20,664 nucleotides of DNA from a virus: positions 1 through 20,664 of the IMG/VR virus record IMGVR_UViG_3300044634_000281. One strand, written 5' to 3'. The notes under the pieces are model-generated. The model did no database searches, was not told where the DNA came from, and was given only the letters and a program-made list of their open reading frames with translations. The translations under genes and the position numbers were made by a program. Of this stretch, positions 1-15,847 are shown piece after piece (position 1 is the stretch's first letter; the number at the start of each line of letters is the position of its first letter).

Positions 1-590
1 ATACAGATGAGGCAGTTGAGAAACACTTAGCTGATTTGAAATCAATGGAATCTGAAAGCATGGACGCAACAGATAAAAAATTCTTGAACGAGCGAATTGC
101 TGGTATCAGTAAAGGAGTTGGTATCATCTATGTTGGTGGTAACTCAGATATTGAGCAGAAAGAAAAGTACGACCGAGTTGACGATGCGGTGAGAGCAGTA
201 GCGGCAGCAGTTGAGGACGGTATTTTGCCAGGCGGTGGAATTGCATTGGCAAACTGTGCTGACGAGATTTCTCACAGATATTCTGACAAGTCGCAAAACT
301 TTATGGCAGCCGTTAGTATTTTAACAAACGCTTTGATTGTACCATTTACGCAAATCATGTTGAACGCAGGGGAAGACCCAAAAGCAATCGGTCAGACGAT
401 ACTTGAGAAGCACGATTTGTTTTTCGGGTATGACGCTAAGAACAGAGTCTTTGGCGACTTGATGAAGTTAGGTGTAGTTGACCCAACGAAAGTAACTAAG
501 AGTGCATTAATTAACGCTGTGTCGGTAGCTACAACAATTGTAAGTACTGAGGCAATAGTAACAAATATGAGAGATGAAAGCAGTAAATAA
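1..590 (+). CDS. groEL: GroEL-type chaperonin, C-terminal part (5' end outside window)
   Basis: Group I chaperonin (Cpn60/GroEL), which folds proteins in an ATP-driven ring chamber. The frame is open from base 3 with no start codon before the window edge, so about 195 C-terminal residues are visible: the end of the apical domain, the second intermediate segment and the equatorial domain. Visible GroEL landmarks are the RIAGISKGVG stretch, RVDDAV (its second Asp, at about 183-185, matches ATPase residue D398 of E. coli GroEL), the PGGG nucleotide-binding turn and VVDPTKVTKSAL (its Asp matches D495). The protein ends shortly after the TEAIVTN segment and lacks the GGM-repeat tail of most bacterial GroELs. 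The stop overlaps the start of a GroES gene by 17 nt, which suggests translational coupling. Surrounding genes are phage genes, so this is a phage-borne copy. Family assignment is very secure; the clients are unknown. Confidence 0.95.
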   Translation, partial: TDEAVEKHLADLKSMESESMDATDKKFLNERIAGISKGVGIIYVGGNSDIEQKEKYDRVDDAVRAVAAAVEDGILPGGGIALANCADEISHRYSDKSQNFMAAVSILTNALIVPFTQIMLNAGEDPKAIGQTILEKHDLFFGYDAKNRVFGDLMKLGVVDPTKVTKSALINAVSVATTIVSTEAIVTNMRDESSK

Positions 591-834
591 ATTTTTGTTG
601 GTTAATAAGATTGTCGAGGAGAAGAAAGGCTCCTCTGGTCTTATTTTAACGGGGGAGGACGTTAATAAAAATAGGTATCAGAACGGTATTGTTTGCGAGG
701 CTGTTGGTAATTTGGTTGACTTTGTGAAAGAGGGCGACAAGATTATGTTCGACCAAGCGAACTCGCATGAGGTGATGATTGACGGAATGATGTACACGGT
801 AATTCAAGAGCGTGACGTAGTGGTAGTATTGTAA
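574..834 (+). CDS. groES: GroES-like co-chaperonin
   Basis: Co-chaperonin that caps the GroEL ring. At 86 residues it is slightly shorter than the usual 95-100. The N-terminal KFLLVNKIVEE strand is followed by a mobile-loop-like segment, KGSSGLILTG, that matches the E. coli loop KSAGGIVLTG; the LIL tripeptide would be the GroEL-docking IVL equivalent. Next come G-I-V-C-E-A-V-G-N, the KEGDKIMF strand and a final RDVVVVL strand, the normal order of the GroES beta barrel. The roof loop seems shortened. The ATG lies inside the 3' end of the chaperonin gene (17-nt overlap), so the two are almost surely co-translated in similar amounts. The gene pair strongly supports the call despite low sequence identity. 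Confidence 0.88.
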   Translation: MKAVNKFLLVNKIVEEKKGSSGLILTGEDVNKNRYQNGIVCEAVGNLVDFVKEGDKIMFDQANSHEVMIDGMMYTVIQERDVVVVL

Positions 835-1333: not shown

Positions 1334-1853
1334 CTCGTTTTATCTTATTCTCTCTAATTTTTTTGTTCATGTCCTTGATTGACATAGCGGTCACTTTATC
1401 TGTATATCGCTCACGCTTAAAGATAGGGTTGTTTCTGGGCATCTCCGCTAGTTCTTCCTCACCGTTCAACACTTTATAGATTTTGGTAATCATAAGTCTA
1501 GCGTTTCTAGTAAGCTCATATCTAGGGTAGTCGCCATTTCTTGACCAACCTTTGTACCATGCGTGGATATATCCCTCTTTCTTCATTCTTGTAAAACGCC
1601 CAGGTTCCCATCCGAATATATTACCGTACTTCTGAAAGTCAGTATAAAAGAAAAGCCCTTCGGAATAAAGAAAGAACAGCATATCTAAATCTTGCTGAGA
1701 TATACCGTATTTCATAGTTGCCCACCGCATAACAATCTTGTGATATTTCAGGTAGTCATATTTAGGTTCTCTCCGTATGTACGTTCTAATTAATTTTTTA
1801 ACAACTTTTTTTGGTTTGCCCATTTTACAATTATATTCTGCGAATTTAAACAA
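1317..1853 (-). CDS. Probable winged-helix DNA-binding protein
   Basis: The only gene read on the minus strand here. It encodes 178 residues from the first ATG, or 168 from the ATG at 1823, which opens with the more usual MGKPKKVVKK. The centre (about 55-135) has a winged-helix pattern: helices around ISQQDLDMLFFLYSE, FTDFQ-like and RFTRMKKEGYI segments, then a turn with WSRNGDYPRYELT, which resembles a wing strand, and a long final helix with the ARLMITKIYKVLNGEE run. The C-terminal tail is basic. Related proteins occur in Bacteroidota phages as predicted MarR-like or wHTH proteins (from memory). It diverges from tnpB across 40 nt and could be a regulator acting on the palindrome at 1860-1874. 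Fold call moderate; the role is inferred. Confidence 0.6.
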   Translation of the reverse strand: MFKFAEYNCKMGKPKKVVKKLIRTYIRREPKYDYLKYHKIVMRWATMKYGISQQDLDMLFFLYSEGLFFYTDFQKYGNIFGWEPGRFTRMKKEGYIHAWYKGWSRNGDYPRYELTRNARLMITKIYKVLNGEEELAEMPRNNPIFKRERYTDKVTAMSIKDMNKKIRENKIKRENPDY

Positions 1854-1859
1854 ATATTC

Positions 1860-1874
1860 TATTTTGTCAAAATA
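1860..1874. promoter_or_regulatory. Palindrome in the divergent intergenic region
   Basis: TATTTTG-T-CAAAATA is a perfect 7-bp inverted repeat with a one-base centre, in the 40-nt gap between the minus-strand winged-helix gene and tnpB. It contains a TTTTG that could be part of the upstream promoter box for tnpB. It could be an operator for the neighbouring DNA-binding protein or a left-end hairpin of the TnpB element (6-bp stem, 3-nt loop). Neither reading can be settled from sequence alone. Confidence 0.4.
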
Positions 1875-1880
1875 ATATTG

Positions 1881-1888
1881 TATATTTG
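1881..1888 (+). promoter_or_regulatory. Bacteroidota-type -7 box before tnpB
   Basis: TATATTTG matches the TAnnTTTG consensus of Bacteroidota primary-sigma promoters exactly. It lies 4 nt before the tnpB ATG at 1893, so the transcript would be nearly leaderless. The nearest upstream TTTG (1863-1866) is only 14 nt away, shorter than the 20-21 nt seen at the best promoters in this window, so strength is uncertain. Confidence 0.4.
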
Positions 1889-1892
1889 TAAT

Positions 1893-3041
1893 ATGTTTAA
1901 AGCATATAAATACCGAATTTCACCAACTGATTCTCAAAAAGAATTGATTGCCAAACATATTGGCAGTAGTAGATTCGTGTATAACCTTGCTTTAGAAACA
2001 AAGAATGCCGCATATATAGGCTCTAAAATAAATTTATCCCCTTTTGATTTAACAAAACAATTACCTGAATTAAAAAAAGAATGTGAATGGTTGAAAGAAG
2101 TTAATAGCCAATCATTACAGCAATCAATACATAATATGGACATTGCTTTTAAGAGATTTTTTAAAGGTGCTGGTTTCCCTAAGTTCAAGAAAAAATCAAA
2201 TAGAGGTAGTTTTTCTATTCCTCAAAAAGTAATAGTTAAAAATAATTTACTTTTTATTCCTAAATTTAAAGAAGGAATAGATATTATTTTACATAGGGAA
2301 ATAAAAGGAACAATAAAAAGTGCAACAATAAGTGTCACTCCAACAGGAAAACATTTTGTTTCAATATTAGTTGATAGTAATACTGAAAGACCATTAAAAG
2401 CATCAGTAGATGAAAGTACTACTATCGGGGTCGATTTAGGAATTAAAAATTTTGCAATTATTTCTAATGGTGATGTTTTTGAAAATCCTAGATTTTTACA
2501 AAAAGCACAAAATAAATTAAGATATGCAGAAAGGAAATATTTAAAGCATAAAGGGAAAAAGACAAGACAACGTCTTGATTTAATGCATGAAAAAATAGCA
2601 AATAAACGCAAAGATTTTTTACACAAAACATCCACTAAATTAATTCGTGAGAATCAAACAATTTGTTTAGAGGATTTAGCAGTAAGTAGTATGTTAAAAA
2701 ACCATAAATTAGCACAAGCTATAAGTGATGCAAGCTGGTCTACTTTTGTAAATATGTTAAAATACAAATCTGATTGGTATGGGAAAAACATTTTACAAAT
2801 AGGACGTTTTGCCCCATCGTCTAAAACTTGTTCTTGTTGTGGATATATATACAAAAAACTAACGCCAAGAGATAGAGAATGGACTTGCCCTAAGTGCAAA
2901 TCTATTCTTGAAAGAGATGTTAATGCTGCTATAAATATTAAATCATTTGCTCTTAAAAATATTTTGAGTGGGGAACACACTCTTAAAAATCAAGGTAAGT
3001 TGCCAACATTGGTTGGAGCATTGACCCTTGAAGCTTATTAA
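1893..3041 (+). CDS. tnpB: TnpB RNA-guided nuclease (IS200/IS605 family)
   Basis: A 382-residue TnpB, of normal length. TnpB is the RNA-guided DNA nuclease of IS200/IS605 elements and the ancestor of Cas12. The start is placed at the ATG giving MFKAYKYRISP, the usual TnpB opening; an upstream TTG would add five residues. An N-terminal helical domain (FVYNLALETKN) is followed by the RuvC core with all three acidic positions: Asp in GVDLGIKNFAI, Glu in ICLEDLAV and Asp in ERDVNAAINI. The zinc ribbon has two Cys-x-x-Cys pairs (CSCCG and CPKC). Nothing suggests decay, so it should be active. There is no TnpA nearby. It appears more AT-rich than the surrounding phage genes, with more AGA arginine codons, consistent with recent arrival. 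Its guide RNA would be expected from the 3' end of the gene and the element's right end. Confidence 0.95.
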   Translation: MFKAYKYRISPTDSQKELIAKHIGSSRFVYNLALETKNAAYIGSKINLSPFDLTKQLPELKKECEWLKEVNSQSLQQSIHNMDIAFKRFFKGAGFPKFKKKSNRGSFSIPQKVIVKNNLLFIPKFKEGIDIILHREIKGTIKSATISVTPTGKHFVSILVDSNTERPLKASVDESTTIGVDLGIKNFAIISNGDVFENPRFLQKAQNKLRYAERKYLKHKGKKTRQRLDLMHEKIANKRKDFLHKTSTKLIRENQTICLEDLAVSSMLKNHKLAQAISDASWSTFVNMLKYKSDWYGKNILQIGRFAPSSKTCSCCGYIYKKLTPRDREWTCPKCKSILERDVNAAINIKSFALKNILSGEHTLKNQGKLPTLVGALTLEAY

Positions 3042-3068
3042 GTCGCTTTTGCGTAATAGGTAGTTCAC
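3037..3068 (+). ncRNA. Candidate TnpB element right end / guide-RNA 3' scaffold
   Basis: The tnpB stop lies inside a hairpin: ATTA (3037-3040) pairs with TAAT (3054-3057) and CGC with GCG, with an unpaired AGT on one side and a TTTT loop. Short subterminal hairpins with a bulge are typical of IS200/IS605 ends, and the guide RNA of TnpB normally comes from this part, with the guide in the flanking DNA. A TTCAC pentamer at 3064-3068 is a possible cleavage boundary. The exact end is a guess, since no empty site or second copy is available. Confidence 0.35.
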
Positions 3069-3072
3069 TATA

Positions 3073-3105
3073 TTTGTGGAGATAATATTAAAATCATTAT
3101 ATTTG
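3073..3105 (+). promoter_or_regulatory. Bacteroidota-type promoter for the 3114 gene
   Basis: TTTG at 3073-3076 and TATATTTG at 3098-3105 are 21 nt apart, an excellent match to the TTTG / TAnnTTTG promoter of Bacteroidota. The start codon follows 8 nt later. The upstream TTTG is itself the end of another TATATTTG (3069-3076), which has a TTTG 17 nt before it (3048-3051, in the loop of the TnpB-end hairpin), so two promoters may be interlocked. Confidence 0.75.
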
Positions 3106-5594: not shown

Positions 5595-6059
5595 ATGTTA
5601 ACTACAAAACAAATGATTGAAAAGTACGGGCAGCCTAATGAGTTGGGTTCGTATTTAGTTACCATTAAAACGCCTTACCCGATGCGTATTGCTTGGGACA
5701 CAAAAATAACTGTTTCTAAAATTAGATGCCATAAATTAGTTGCTGAAAGACTAAACGCTGTTTTTACTGAATTGCTAGAAGTTTATGGTTTGCCTAAAAT
5801 CAAGGAGCTAGGAATTGATTTATTTGGCGGTTGTTTTAATTTCAGAAAAATGCGTGGCGGTTCTGATTGGTCGAAACATTCTTGGGGAACAGCTATCGAT
5901 TTAGACCCTGCTAGAAATAAATTAAAAGAAACATCTAAGACGGCTAGATTTGCACGACCTGAATATAAGCAAATGATTGATATTTTTTACAAACATGGTT
6001 TTATCAGTTTAGGAAGAGAAAAAAATTACGATTGGATGCACTTTGAAATTGGTTCATGA
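5595..6059 (+). CDS. M15 peptidase endolysin (VanY-like)
   Basis: A 154-residue zinc peptidase of the M15 group, which cuts peptide cross-links or the L-Ala-D-Glu bond of peptidoglycan. The family signature is present: [12 protein letters not shown] with His95 and Asp102 as zinc ligands, and D-W-M-H-F-E with His149 as the third ligand and Asp146 as probable catalytic base. An Arg in the GGCFNFRKM segment is at the usual substrate-binding position. The protein has no signal peptide, so it needs a holin to reach the wall; candidates are just upstream. It is single-domain with no wall-binding module, as is usual for phages of Gram-negative hosts. The ATG follows an A-rich leader. Confidence 0.88.
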
Positions 6060-6060
6060 T

Positions 6061-6576
6061 ATGAATGAGTTAAATAAAAGAAAATGCACAACGTGCAAGG
6101 TAATAAAATTAGCTACAAATGATTTTTTTCATAGGAGTAAAAACTGTTATTTAGGTCTAGAGTATAGGTGCAAGGAGTGTTCTAAACTGAGAAAAGATAA
6201 AAGGAAGTGGAGCGATAGGTGGGATAATATGACTGAATGTCAAAAAAATGCAAGCAGGCTTGCAAAGAATAAATACAACAAATCATTTAAGGGAAGGTGT
6301 TATGCTACACTTAAAGCTTATCAGAAAATAGATAAAATAAAAGGATTTAAAAATGATTTGGATATTCTATATATAGAAAACATTAAAAAACAACCTTGTT
6401 TTTATTGCACATACCCATCTACTGGAGCAGATAGAATAGACAATTCTCTAGGGCATTTAAAATCAAATTGTGTTCCTTGTTGTAAAGAATGCAATATAGC
6501 TAGGAATGATTTGTTTACAATTGATGAGATGATTATTTTAGGTAAGGCAATTAAAAAGATAAAAGATAAAAGATAA
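6061..6576 (+). CDS. HNH endonuclease with zinc-finger N-terminus
   Basis: A 171-residue protein starting at the ATG one base after the endolysin stop; a TTG further upstream is less likely. The N-terminus has a zinc ribbon with Cys9-x-x-Cys12 and Cys37-x-x-Cys40 around an FFHRSK segment. The C-terminus (about 110-160) is an HNH domain of the DRIDNS type: PCFYC, then GADRIDNSLGHLKSNCVPCCKECNIAR, with Cys pairs that hold the zinc and the Asn of the final motif. Proteins like this are free-standing homing endonucleases that spread between phages. Its AT-rich base use and its place between the endolysin and the fibre gene fit a mobile insertion. It is intact and may be active. Confidence 0.85.
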   Translation: MNELNKRKCTTCKVIKLATNDFFHRSKNCYLGLEYRCKECSKLRKDKRKWSDRWDNMTECQKNASRLAKNKYNKSFKGRCYATLKAYQKIDKIKGFKNDLDILYIENIKKQPCFYCTYPSTGADRIDNSLGHLKSNCVPCCKECNIARNDLFTIDEMIILGKAIKKIKDKR

Positions 6577-7622: not shown

Positions 7623-7809
7623 CTATCTTAATTCAATGAAATATGTCTTAGGTCAAATCGTTCTTAATAACTCAAATATTATTGACTTGATTAAAGAAAC
7701 GACTGAAGCGTATGAGATTTGGATAAAGAATAGTAATAACGAAATTATTAAATGGAAACAGTTTAATAAGACAATGCCAATATCAGTAGAATTTAATATC
7801 AACTTTTAA
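7594..7809 (+). CDS. Small conserved phage protein (KITIGPDYLN type)
   Basis: A 71-residue protein beginning RKITIGPDYLNSMKYVLGQ and ending with IIKWKQFNKTMPISVEFNINF. This beginning and end are shared by small proteins near the packaging genes of Bacteroidota phages, including crAss-like ones, from memory; function unknown. It is mostly beta and has no membrane segment. It overlaps both neighbours: by 29 nt upstream and by the TAATG motif at the next start. The GGAG upstream of its start is one of the few Shine-Dalgarno-like sites in this window. Confidence 0.7.
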   Translation: MIRKITIGPDYLNSMKYVLGQIVLNNSNIIDLIKETTEAYEIWIKNSNNEIIKWKQFNKTMPISVEFNINF

Positions 7810-8390
7810 TGCGTTCACCATATTCATTTATCATTACGCCAAAGAACGGTAATAGGTACGACAACAAGAAAATGATTGAAGGACAAGAGATTGTCATGTC
7901 ATCTTCTATGGAGGACCATACCGTTACAAATAGATACGGTTTGGTAAAAGCCTTGCCTATGTATTACACTGGGCATATTGAGGTTGGAGATACAGTTATT
8001 GTTCACCATAATGTTTTTAGGATTTATTATGACATGAAAGGTCGTGAGAAAAGTTCATGGAATCACCTGGTTGATGATTTGTTTATTATTGAGGAAGACC
8101 AACTATATTTATATAGAAAGAATGATGATTGTGAATGGCAAGCACCGAACCCGTTTTGCTTTATTAAACCAATAGCGAACGACAATAAAGATGAGTTGAT
8201 TCAAAAATTAGGACATGATAAAGAGTTGTGGGGTATTGTAAAATATACTGATAGCTTTATGCCTGAGTTTAAAATTGGAGATACTGTTTCTTTTACTCCT
8301 GATTCGGAGTATGAATTTAAAATAGACGATGAACGGTTATTTAGAATGAGATACAAGAACATATGCTTAGTAAAAGACAAGAAATCCTAG
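7809..8390 (+). CDS. Tandem GroES-like beta-barrel protein
   Basis: A 193-residue protein that looks like two GroES-type barrels in tandem. Domain 1 (about 5-103) has SFIITPK, VTNRYGLV, VGDTVIVHHNVFR and DLFIIEEDQLYLY. Domain 2 (about 116-188) has FCFIKPI, WGIVKYTD, FKIGDTVSFTPDSEYEF and ERLFRM-x-x-KNICLV. The second domain aligns by eye with E. coli GroES blocks GEVLAVG, VKVGDIVIF, YGVKSEKIDNEEVL and SDILAIV. The mobile loop seems missing or very different in domain 2. Proteins with VGDTVIVHHNVFR occur in many large phages, usually as hypothetical. It may be a dedicated co-chaperonin or a structural barrel. It begins with a TAATG overlap and its end overlaps the next gene by 28 nt. A second, canonical GroES is at 574. 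Confidence 0.55.
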   Translation: MRSPYSFIITPKNGNRYDNKKMIEGQEIVMSSSMEDHTVTNRYGLVKALPMYYTGHIEVGDTVIVHHNVFRIYYDMKGREKSSWNHLVDDLFIIEEDQLYLYRKNDDCEWQAPNPFCFIKPIANDNKDELIQKLGHDKELWGIVKYTDSFMPEFKIGDTVSFTPDSEYEFKIDDERLFRMRYKNICLVKDKKS

Positions 8391-14452: not shown

Positions 14453-15847
14453 ATGGCAGGTTCATTACAAAGCACACCAGGTTTCGACTTACAACCGAGT
14501 GCTAAAAAAGCAACATTACCTACTAACTACATCACTAACTTTGACTTCTTGAATCAGTATCTTCCTGATACTTACGAAGCTGAGTTTGAGCGTTACGGTA
14601 ATCGTACAATTAACTCGTTCTTACGTCAAGTAGGAGCAGAGATTCCATCTAACTCAGATTTGATTAAATGGACAGAAACAGGACGTTTGCATACTAAATA
14701 CGCTAGCGTATCAACAGCAGCTTCAACGAGTGCAGATACAGCGGTAATGACAGTTGCTGATTCAGGGATTACAGAGTGTAACTTCCGTGTTGGTCAAGTA
14801 GTGTTTTTATCAAACAACGCATCTAGCCAATCAGCTAAAGCGATTATCACAGCAGTATCAGGATTGACTTTCACAGTTGCTTTCTATGCAGCAGGTGGTC
14901 AGCCTTCTTCTTTCTCAGGAGCAACATTAACGGCTTTCGTTTATGGTTCTGAGTTCAGAAAAGGTGCAAACGGATTGCAAGGTTCTTTGGAAGCACAACC
15001 GTTGATTTTTGAAGTATCTCCTGTTATCATCAAGAACAAGTATGCAGTTTCAGGTTCCGACATGGCTCAAATTGGTTGGGTTGAAGTTACTACTGAAAAC
15101 GGAGCAACTGGTTACTTATGGTACTTGAAATCAGAGCACGAAGAAAGACTTCGTTTTGACGATTACTTGGAAATGATGATGGTTGAGCACGTTCAAGCTG
15201 AGACTGGTTCAGGTGCAATCGCTACAACTGGTGATATCGGTAACAAAGGAACTGAAGGTTTATTTGACGCTGTTGAAACAAGAGGTAACGTTTGGTCAGG
15301 TGGTGTTCCATCTACATTGAGTGATTTCGATACAATCGTTGGTCGTTTGGACAAACAAGGAGCTATTGCTGAAAACGCATTGTTCTTGAATCGTGATTTC
15401 TCTTTCAGCATTGACGATATGTTAGCTGCTCAAAACTCTTACGGAGTTGGTGGTACGTCTTACGGATTGTTCGACAATGATGAGAAAATGGCTATCAACT
15501 TAGGTTTCACAGGTTTCCGTAGAGGTTACGATTTCTACAAAACTGACTGGAAATACTTGAATGATGCAACTCTTCGTGGAGGTATCGTTGGTGGTGTTGT
15601 AAACGGTGTTTTAGTACCTGCGGGGACAATGAACGTTTATGACCAAGTAATGGGTAAAAACGCAAAACGTCCATTCTTGCACGTACGTTACAGAGCTTCT
15701 GAAGCTGAAAACAGACGTTACAAAACTTGGATTACTGGTTCTGCTGGTGGTGCAATGACAAGTGACTTAGATGCAATGGAGGTTAACTTCTTGTCTGAAA
15801 GAGCACTTTGTACGTTAGGAGCTAATAACTTCTTCATCTTCAAATAA
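14453..15847 (+). CDS. Major capsid protein
   Basis: A 464-residue protein in the normal MCP position (after portal and scaffold, before a strong terminator). The HK97-fold shell protein is suggested by an N-terminal arm (FLNQYLPDTYEAEFERYGNRTI), a spine-like KYAVSGSDMAQIGWVEVTT segment with the helix LWYLKSEHEERLRFDDYLE, and a C-terminal block ENRRYKTWITGSAGGAMTSDLDAMEVNFLSERALCTLGANNFFIF that resembles crAss-like MCPs. Residues about 75-165 look like a beta-rich insertion domain with many Ser/Thr/Ala. By eye, Arg codons are mostly CGT and Phe/Asn codons mostly TTC/AAC, unlike TnpB, consistent with very high expression. The start has a purine-rich AAGAAAA leader. Confidence 0.88.
   Translation: MAGSLQSTPGFDLQPSAKKATLPTNYITNFDFLNQYLPDTYEAEFERYGNRTINSFLRQVGAEIPSNSDLIKWTETGRLHTKYASVSTAASTSADTAVMTVADSGITECNFRVGQVVFLSNNASSQSAKAIITAVSGLTFTVAFYAAGGQPSSFSGATLTAFVYGSEFRKGANGLQGSLEAQPLIFEVSPVIIKNKYAVSGSDMAQIGWVEVTTENGATGYLWYLKSEHEERLRFDDYLEMMMVEHVQAETGSGAIATTGDIGNKGTEGLFDAVETRGNVWSGGVPSTLSDFDTIVGRLDKQGAIAENALFLNRDFSFSIDDMLAAQNSYGVGGTSYGLFDNDEKMAINLGFTGFRRGYDFYKTDWKYLNDATLRGGIVGGVVNGVLVPAGTMNVYDQVMGKNAKRPFLHVRYRASEAENRRYKTWITGSAGGAMTSDLDAMEVNFLSERALCTLGANNFFIFK

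Follow-up and report, generated by a model that had tools for sequence, protein, structure and literature searches.

Introduction

Group I chaperonins bind unfolded protein at their apical rim, after which ATP and GroES close the folding chamber. Bacteriophage T4 has no GroEL of its own, uses that of its host, and supplies gp31, a roofless co-chaperonin that lets host GroEL fold the T4 coat protein. The giant phages EL, OBP, and AR9 encode GroEL homologues (gp146, gp246, and gp228, respectively) that form single rings or ATP-labile double rings and are reported to work independently of a co-chaperonin (PMC7185714, PMC9598537). Phage GroEL-GroES pairs are also known, if little studied. They are annotated in Flavobacterium elemo phage, Cellulophaga phi40:1 (Callevirus), immuto, and MW202828; an unannotated GroES adjoins GroEL in Bacteroides phage DAC19; and of a group of 78 genomes related to phi38:1 and phi40:1, 36 were found to encode GroEL (Nishimura et al. 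2017; PMC5332604).

The pair that we describe lies at the left edge of a 20,664-nucleotide stretch of viral DNA (positions 1 to 20,664 of IMG/VR record IMGVR_UViG_3300044634_000281; hereafter the window) and is of this already known kind; what is new is the anatomy shared across its clade, in which tail, inter-ring contacts, groove, and roof are changed and the ATP site is kept. Like the window pair, those of elemo, phi40:1, and MW202828 are encoded by Bacteroidota podoviruses with related terminases (identity of the window terminase is 66% with its counterpart in MW202828, a podovirus of 60.9 kb, and 44% with those of Flavobacterium elemo phages), but their GroELs are only 36-45% identical to the GroEL of the window lineage. 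In elemo and MW202828 groEL precedes groES, as in the window, whereas in phi40:1 the order is reversed and a gene lies between the two. EL, OBP, and AR9 resemble the window lineage in encoding GroEL homologues and have the ring form predicted for it; unlike them, the window lineage has its own GroES, and its GroEL is 37-39% identical to cellular GroELs compared with 21-27% to the proteins of Bacillus and Pseudomonas jumbo phages. The window GroES lacks a roof hairpin, as does T4 gp31, but unlike in T4 a phage GroEL is encoded beside it. With the GroEL-GroES systems of E. coli and Bacteroidota the window lineage shares the group I fold, the ATP residues, and a Cpn10 lid with a mobile loop, whereas it lacks their GGM tail, inter-ring residues, and roof hairpin, has an altered groove, and carries the two genes in the opposite order.

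The chaperonin pair

The original prediction was of a phage-borne chaperonin and co-chaperonin overlapping by 17 nt, and both the coordinates and the profile matches to Pfam and PHROG families bear this out. The frame at positions 3-590 (+ strand) is open at its 5' end, the gene being truncated by the contig edge, and encodes the C-terminal 195 aa of a GroEL that matches Pfam Cpn60_TCP1 (PF00118; E = 2.7e-25, 89.5 bits, cut-off 34.3) and the PHROG family "chaperonin groEL" (phrog_5725; 1.6e-40). This piece corresponds to about residues 335-529 of full-length relatives, drawn from a set of 65 viral loci from IMG/VR, so that the first 334 residues or so can be inferred from those relatives only; it is 92-99% identical to the full-length GroELs of loci L002-L007. 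The full-length GroEL of L003 exceeds the cut-offs of PF00118 (199 bits against 34.3) and NF009487 (473.7 against 352) and falls under that of TIGR02348, the cellular GroEL equivalog (448.8 against 582.1), and by these profile scores GroELs of the L003 type are homologues standing outside the cellular equivalog. The predicted GroEL structure (pLDDT 85) has an ordinary GroEL fold, and the top TM-score among the matches listed (0.90-0.91) was to ADP-bound human Hsp60 in single-ring form, although ring number is not readable from a monomer model.

The GroES gene (574-834, + strand) is complete and encodes 86 aa that match Pfam Cpn10 (PF00166; 2.7e-10, 40.6 bits, cut-off 21.1). By alignment the protein has a mobile loop (GLIL) and no roof hairpin, and Foldseek matched its AlphaFold2 model (pLDDT 81) to Cpn10 chains with E down to 1.5e-5 and also to the gp31 structure 1g31. 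The hydrophobic tripeptide of the mobile loop is present (GLILTG), and on alignment the mobile-loop region of the phage GroES proteins is about two residues longer than in cellular ones. The overlap spans 574-590 (+ strand), from the GroES ATG at 574 to the end of the GroEL stop codon at 590, with the two genes in different frames; an identical 17-nt overlap is found in L002-L007, L012, L015, L038, L039, and L061, which suggests translational coupling of GroEL and GroES. Directly after GroES lies a gene (854-1114, + strand) for another 86-aa protein, which matches several PHROG families of unknown function (best 3.5e-34); genes for small proteins resembling it start between GroEL and GroES in L046 and L055.

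Distribution and gene order

The original prediction also treated a coupled pair as unusual, and on this point the census of phage records, including the annotated pairs cited above, rules out a rare arrangement. Of 17 longer records whose coat protein is related, each of the 10 that reach 56 kb or more, and one shorter record, has one GroEL and one GroES, and both are absent from the remaining six (at most 54 kb, and possibly incomplete), amounting to co-presence in 11/11 and co-absence in 6/6. Judged from these records, the two genes behave as one core module, inherited together and long resident in the phage lineage.

A tree of 85 GroELs places the window piece inside a phage-only set of 31 (SH-aLRT 100), which is separate from all 43 cellular GroELs in the tree, those of Bacteroidota included; the tree was made quickly, its outlying phages sit on long branches, and we rely on only the clade that holds the window. 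The best identity of a full-length relative's GroEL to any cellular GroEL is 39%. The order is groEL to groES in 64/64 relatives with sequence on that side, where GroES adjoins GroEL as in the window (the count leaves out L066, which ends inside GroEL), as opposed to groES to groEL in 49/49 bacterial loci. Viral GroEL phylogeny was reportedly already linked to subunit gene order by Marine et al. 2017 (ISME J), and we therefore do not claim the reversed order alone as new.

Retained and altered anatomy

In alignment with cellular GroELs, the ATP-site residues T30, K51, D52, D87, T89, T91, D398, and D495 are invariant across the phage clade, D398 and D495 being visible in the window itself and the rest in its relatives. 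The nucleotide-site motif GDGTTT (86-91) is conserved, with S in place of T90 in two members, and N479 is mostly D in the clade. As originally predicted, the window GroEL has no GGM tail: it ends in ...TEAIVTNMRDESSK, with five residues (DESSK) past the equivalent of E. coli residue 525 and neither G nor M among them. Tails beyond this point are 0-7 residues long in the phage relatives versus 14-28 in cellular GroELs, and across the aligned sequences the missing tail is a trait of the whole clade rather than one particular to the window phage.

Changes are also found where rings touch, where clients and lid bind, and in the lid itself. The inter-ring sites R452, E461, S463, and V464, which are the ones mutated in SR1, the classic single-ring form of E. 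coli GroEL, read T, D, K, and A in the window, and A109 is D in L003. At four inter-ring sites that are invariant in cellular GroELs, the cellular residue is kept in 6% of phages on average; in a control with equatorial sites that are likewise invariant in cellular GroELs, 0.9% of randomly drawn sets had retention this low. In the apical groove, E takes the place of L234 in 29/30, no member of the clade has V at position 263 or 264, and F204 and L237 are retained; changes of the L234E type would abolish lid binding in E. coli GroEL. The roof segment of GroES has 13-14 residues in 65/65 phage proteins versus 15-22 in 49 cellular ones. Because roofs of Bacteroidota GroES are already short (often 17 residues), the gain in chamber volume over a plausible host would be modest. 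Taken across the alignments, the reductions in tail, roof, and ring contacts run together through the whole clade. The clade is thus a natural experiment in which floor tail, lid roof, and ring contacts have been dropped and the ATP engine and a matching lid kept, and through it both the need for two rings and chamber volume as a determinant of client choice could be tested.

Function, client, and partner

We propose that the overlapping genes specify a private group I system whose two parts, a GroEL ring driven by ATP and the GroES lid that fits it, are made together, and the conserved residues and paired genes make a functional private pair probable. The phage GroEL would partner its own GroES, on the assumption that the latter compensates for changes of the L234E type. 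With floor tail and roof hairpin both cut back, the chamber would by geometry be larger, which could let a phage structural protein, the coat first, fold when host GroEL-GroES is insufficient or unsuited. A double ring of 14 subunits is doubtful given the replacement of the contact residues R452, E461, S463, V464, and A109; because inter-ring residues are lost, the ring is likely either single or double but weakly joined and ATP-labile, by analogy with EL, OBP, and AR9, and for the strictly single form we consider the chances evenly balanced. The original prediction had drawn its ring-form idea from the absent tail, for which the loss of inter-ring residues, as read from the alignment, is a better footing.

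As main client the coat protein is our leading guess, held at slightly under even confidence. The candidate is a major virion structural (coat-like) protein of 464 aa (14453-15847, + strand; phrog_13704, 9.2e-106), one of a series of genes that lie downstream of the pair on the same strand and encode an endolysin-like peptidase, terminase, portal, coat-like, and other virion proteins. A "muzzle" client, which the original prediction had also raised, is unlikely by size alone if folding occurs within a closed chamber. The client may instead be another phage enzyme, such as an endolysin, or many proteins of the infected cell, the pair then being a general helper in late infection; the chaperonins of giant phages EL and AR9 act on endolysin in vitro (PMC9598537), and an M15 peptidase/endolysin-like gene is nearby (5595-6059). 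We regard this as possible but rather unlikely, as a second Cpn10-like gene just upstream of the terminase, portal, and coat genes points, indirectly, to virion assembly.

This second gene (7809-8390, + strand) encodes a GroES-like protein of 193 aa, carrying a HHNVFRIYYDMKG motif, that matches the PHROG family "co-chaperonin GroES" (phrog_13932; 3e-23 over 1-196/200). Its C-terminal half aligns with phage GroES (hhalign E = 8.5e-5, probability 60%), and a reading of its N-terminal half as a second Cpn10 domain was unsupported by profile comparison; Pfam Cpn10 is reached by 7/21 members of the family, the window protein being below the cut-off. The gene lies upstream of the terminase in the window, in elemo phages, and in MW202828, and members of the family already bear the label cpn10 or GroES in elemo and Calle phages, so that the annotation as such is known. 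That the 193-aa protein is part of the folding system is conjecture.

Alternatively, one could envision the phage proteins acting mainly with host parts, the phage GroES capping host GroEL in the style of gp31 or the GroEL subunits co-assembling with those of the host. The gp31 precedent, the equally roofless phage GroES with its fold match to 1g31, and the retained hydrophobic residues of the mobile loop would all fit, but every long genome of the lineage retains, next to GroES, a full GroEL that would be superfluous if host GroEL served, and the groove is changed at L234, V263, and V264, as expected for a lid partner unlike that of the host; we therefore think such mixed assemblies improbable and retain the private pair as our reading. 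An origin of the left edge from the host or from a chimeric assembly, as might be suspected of a gene touching a contig edge, where misjoins occur, in view of the universal presence of GroEL in hosts, has a vanishingly small probability and is ruled out by the phage-only clade, by the gene order opposite to the bacterial one, and by synteny, since L002-L007 are 89-97% identical to the window in DNA over the pair and then continue into the same downstream genes. Phage ownership, assumed in the original prediction, is thus upheld, with phage flanking genes and a phage-only clade found in place of bacterial flanks and a GroEL within one host genus.

An intein in the GroEL of related phages

In the relative L002, which is 97% identical to the window in DNA over the pair, GroEL has 858 residues, of which 530 are the usual complement and 328 form an insert that splits the ATP loop between GDG and TST (GDG^TST). 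The insert (L002:4282-5265) is a class 3 intein by the published definition (PMC7891396), with the WCT triplet (HLW, MQC, PTHN^T), P as first residue and no N-terminal Cys, and a C-terminal HN followed by the nucleophile T; it carries a LAGLIDADG domain. In triplet and LAGLIDADG domain it is like the class 3 inteins of phage terminases and helicases and of mycobacterial DnaB (6rix), to which it gave full-length matches; unlike these, its host protein is GroEL, at GDG^T. From the intact motifs and open frame we infer that the insert splices, and in sister phages it should leave GroEL after translation.

A single-sequence search with this intein returned L002 only. When the viral collection was scanned with two junction patterns, inteins of 146-339 aa were found at exactly GDG^T(T/S)(T/S) of GroEL in 22 viral contigs (L002, L158-L165, L167, L169, L171, L172, L209, and L212-L219), after matches that were not GroEL had been discarded (L166 and L168, 2/15 for the N-junction; L210, 1/21 for the C-junction). 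Two are 146-residue forms without an endonuclease, and several of the contigs have phage-type flanking genes, e.g., portal, terminase, and ribonucleotide reductase. In the isolate collection, no phage GroEL among the matches listed was split into pieces. Members of the family are 41-60% identical to the L002 intein, compared to 33-37% for the best phage inteins elsewhere, and by this measure the GroEL inteins are an allele family of their own. In 145/150 pairs of diverged hosts the inteins are more alike than the GroELs that carry them (mean 51% versus 34%), which points to horizontal homing, and the family thus appears to spread horizontally. When L002 is compared with L003, which has no intein, substitutions are most crowded in a 120-nt stretch that begins at the insertion point (22/87), a cluster such as co-conversion would leave and, from a single pair, weak evidence of it.

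For 19/21 intein-bearing GroELs no GroES was detectable on the contig, records of 160-204 kb included, and these may be co-chaperonin-independent chaperonins. The phrases for a GroEL or chaperonin intein were not found in the openly accessible papers searched, and priority is uncertain. With its recurrent ATP-loop intein, GroEL would join the proteins colonized by phage inteins, with the insertion in a block essential for ATP turnover by the ring, and would be a natural switchable chaperonin; this widespread family is the most surprising result, and it lies in relatives. The window starts at about GroEL residue 335, past the intein site at residue 90. At its most speculative, and in our estimate very improbable, the system would be a private single-ring chamber that the phage equips with a pair of distinct lids, one being the roofless 86-aa GroES and the other the double-length Cpn10-like protein encoded upstream of the terminase, and in which GroEL of some members, possibly including the window phage, stays inactive until the ATP-loop intein splices, splicing thereby timing chamber activity in infection.

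Other features of the window

A search of the window against Rfam gave no match. An insertion of about 1.26 kb (about 1826-3082) carries an orphan IS605 OrfB/TnpB-like transposase gene (1878-3041) and is missing at the same place in L002, L003, L004, L005, and L007. Adjoining the M15 peptidase gene is one for a 177-aa endonuclease VII-like protein (6043-6576, + strand; PHROG 1.7e-16), possibly a free-standing homing endonuclease.
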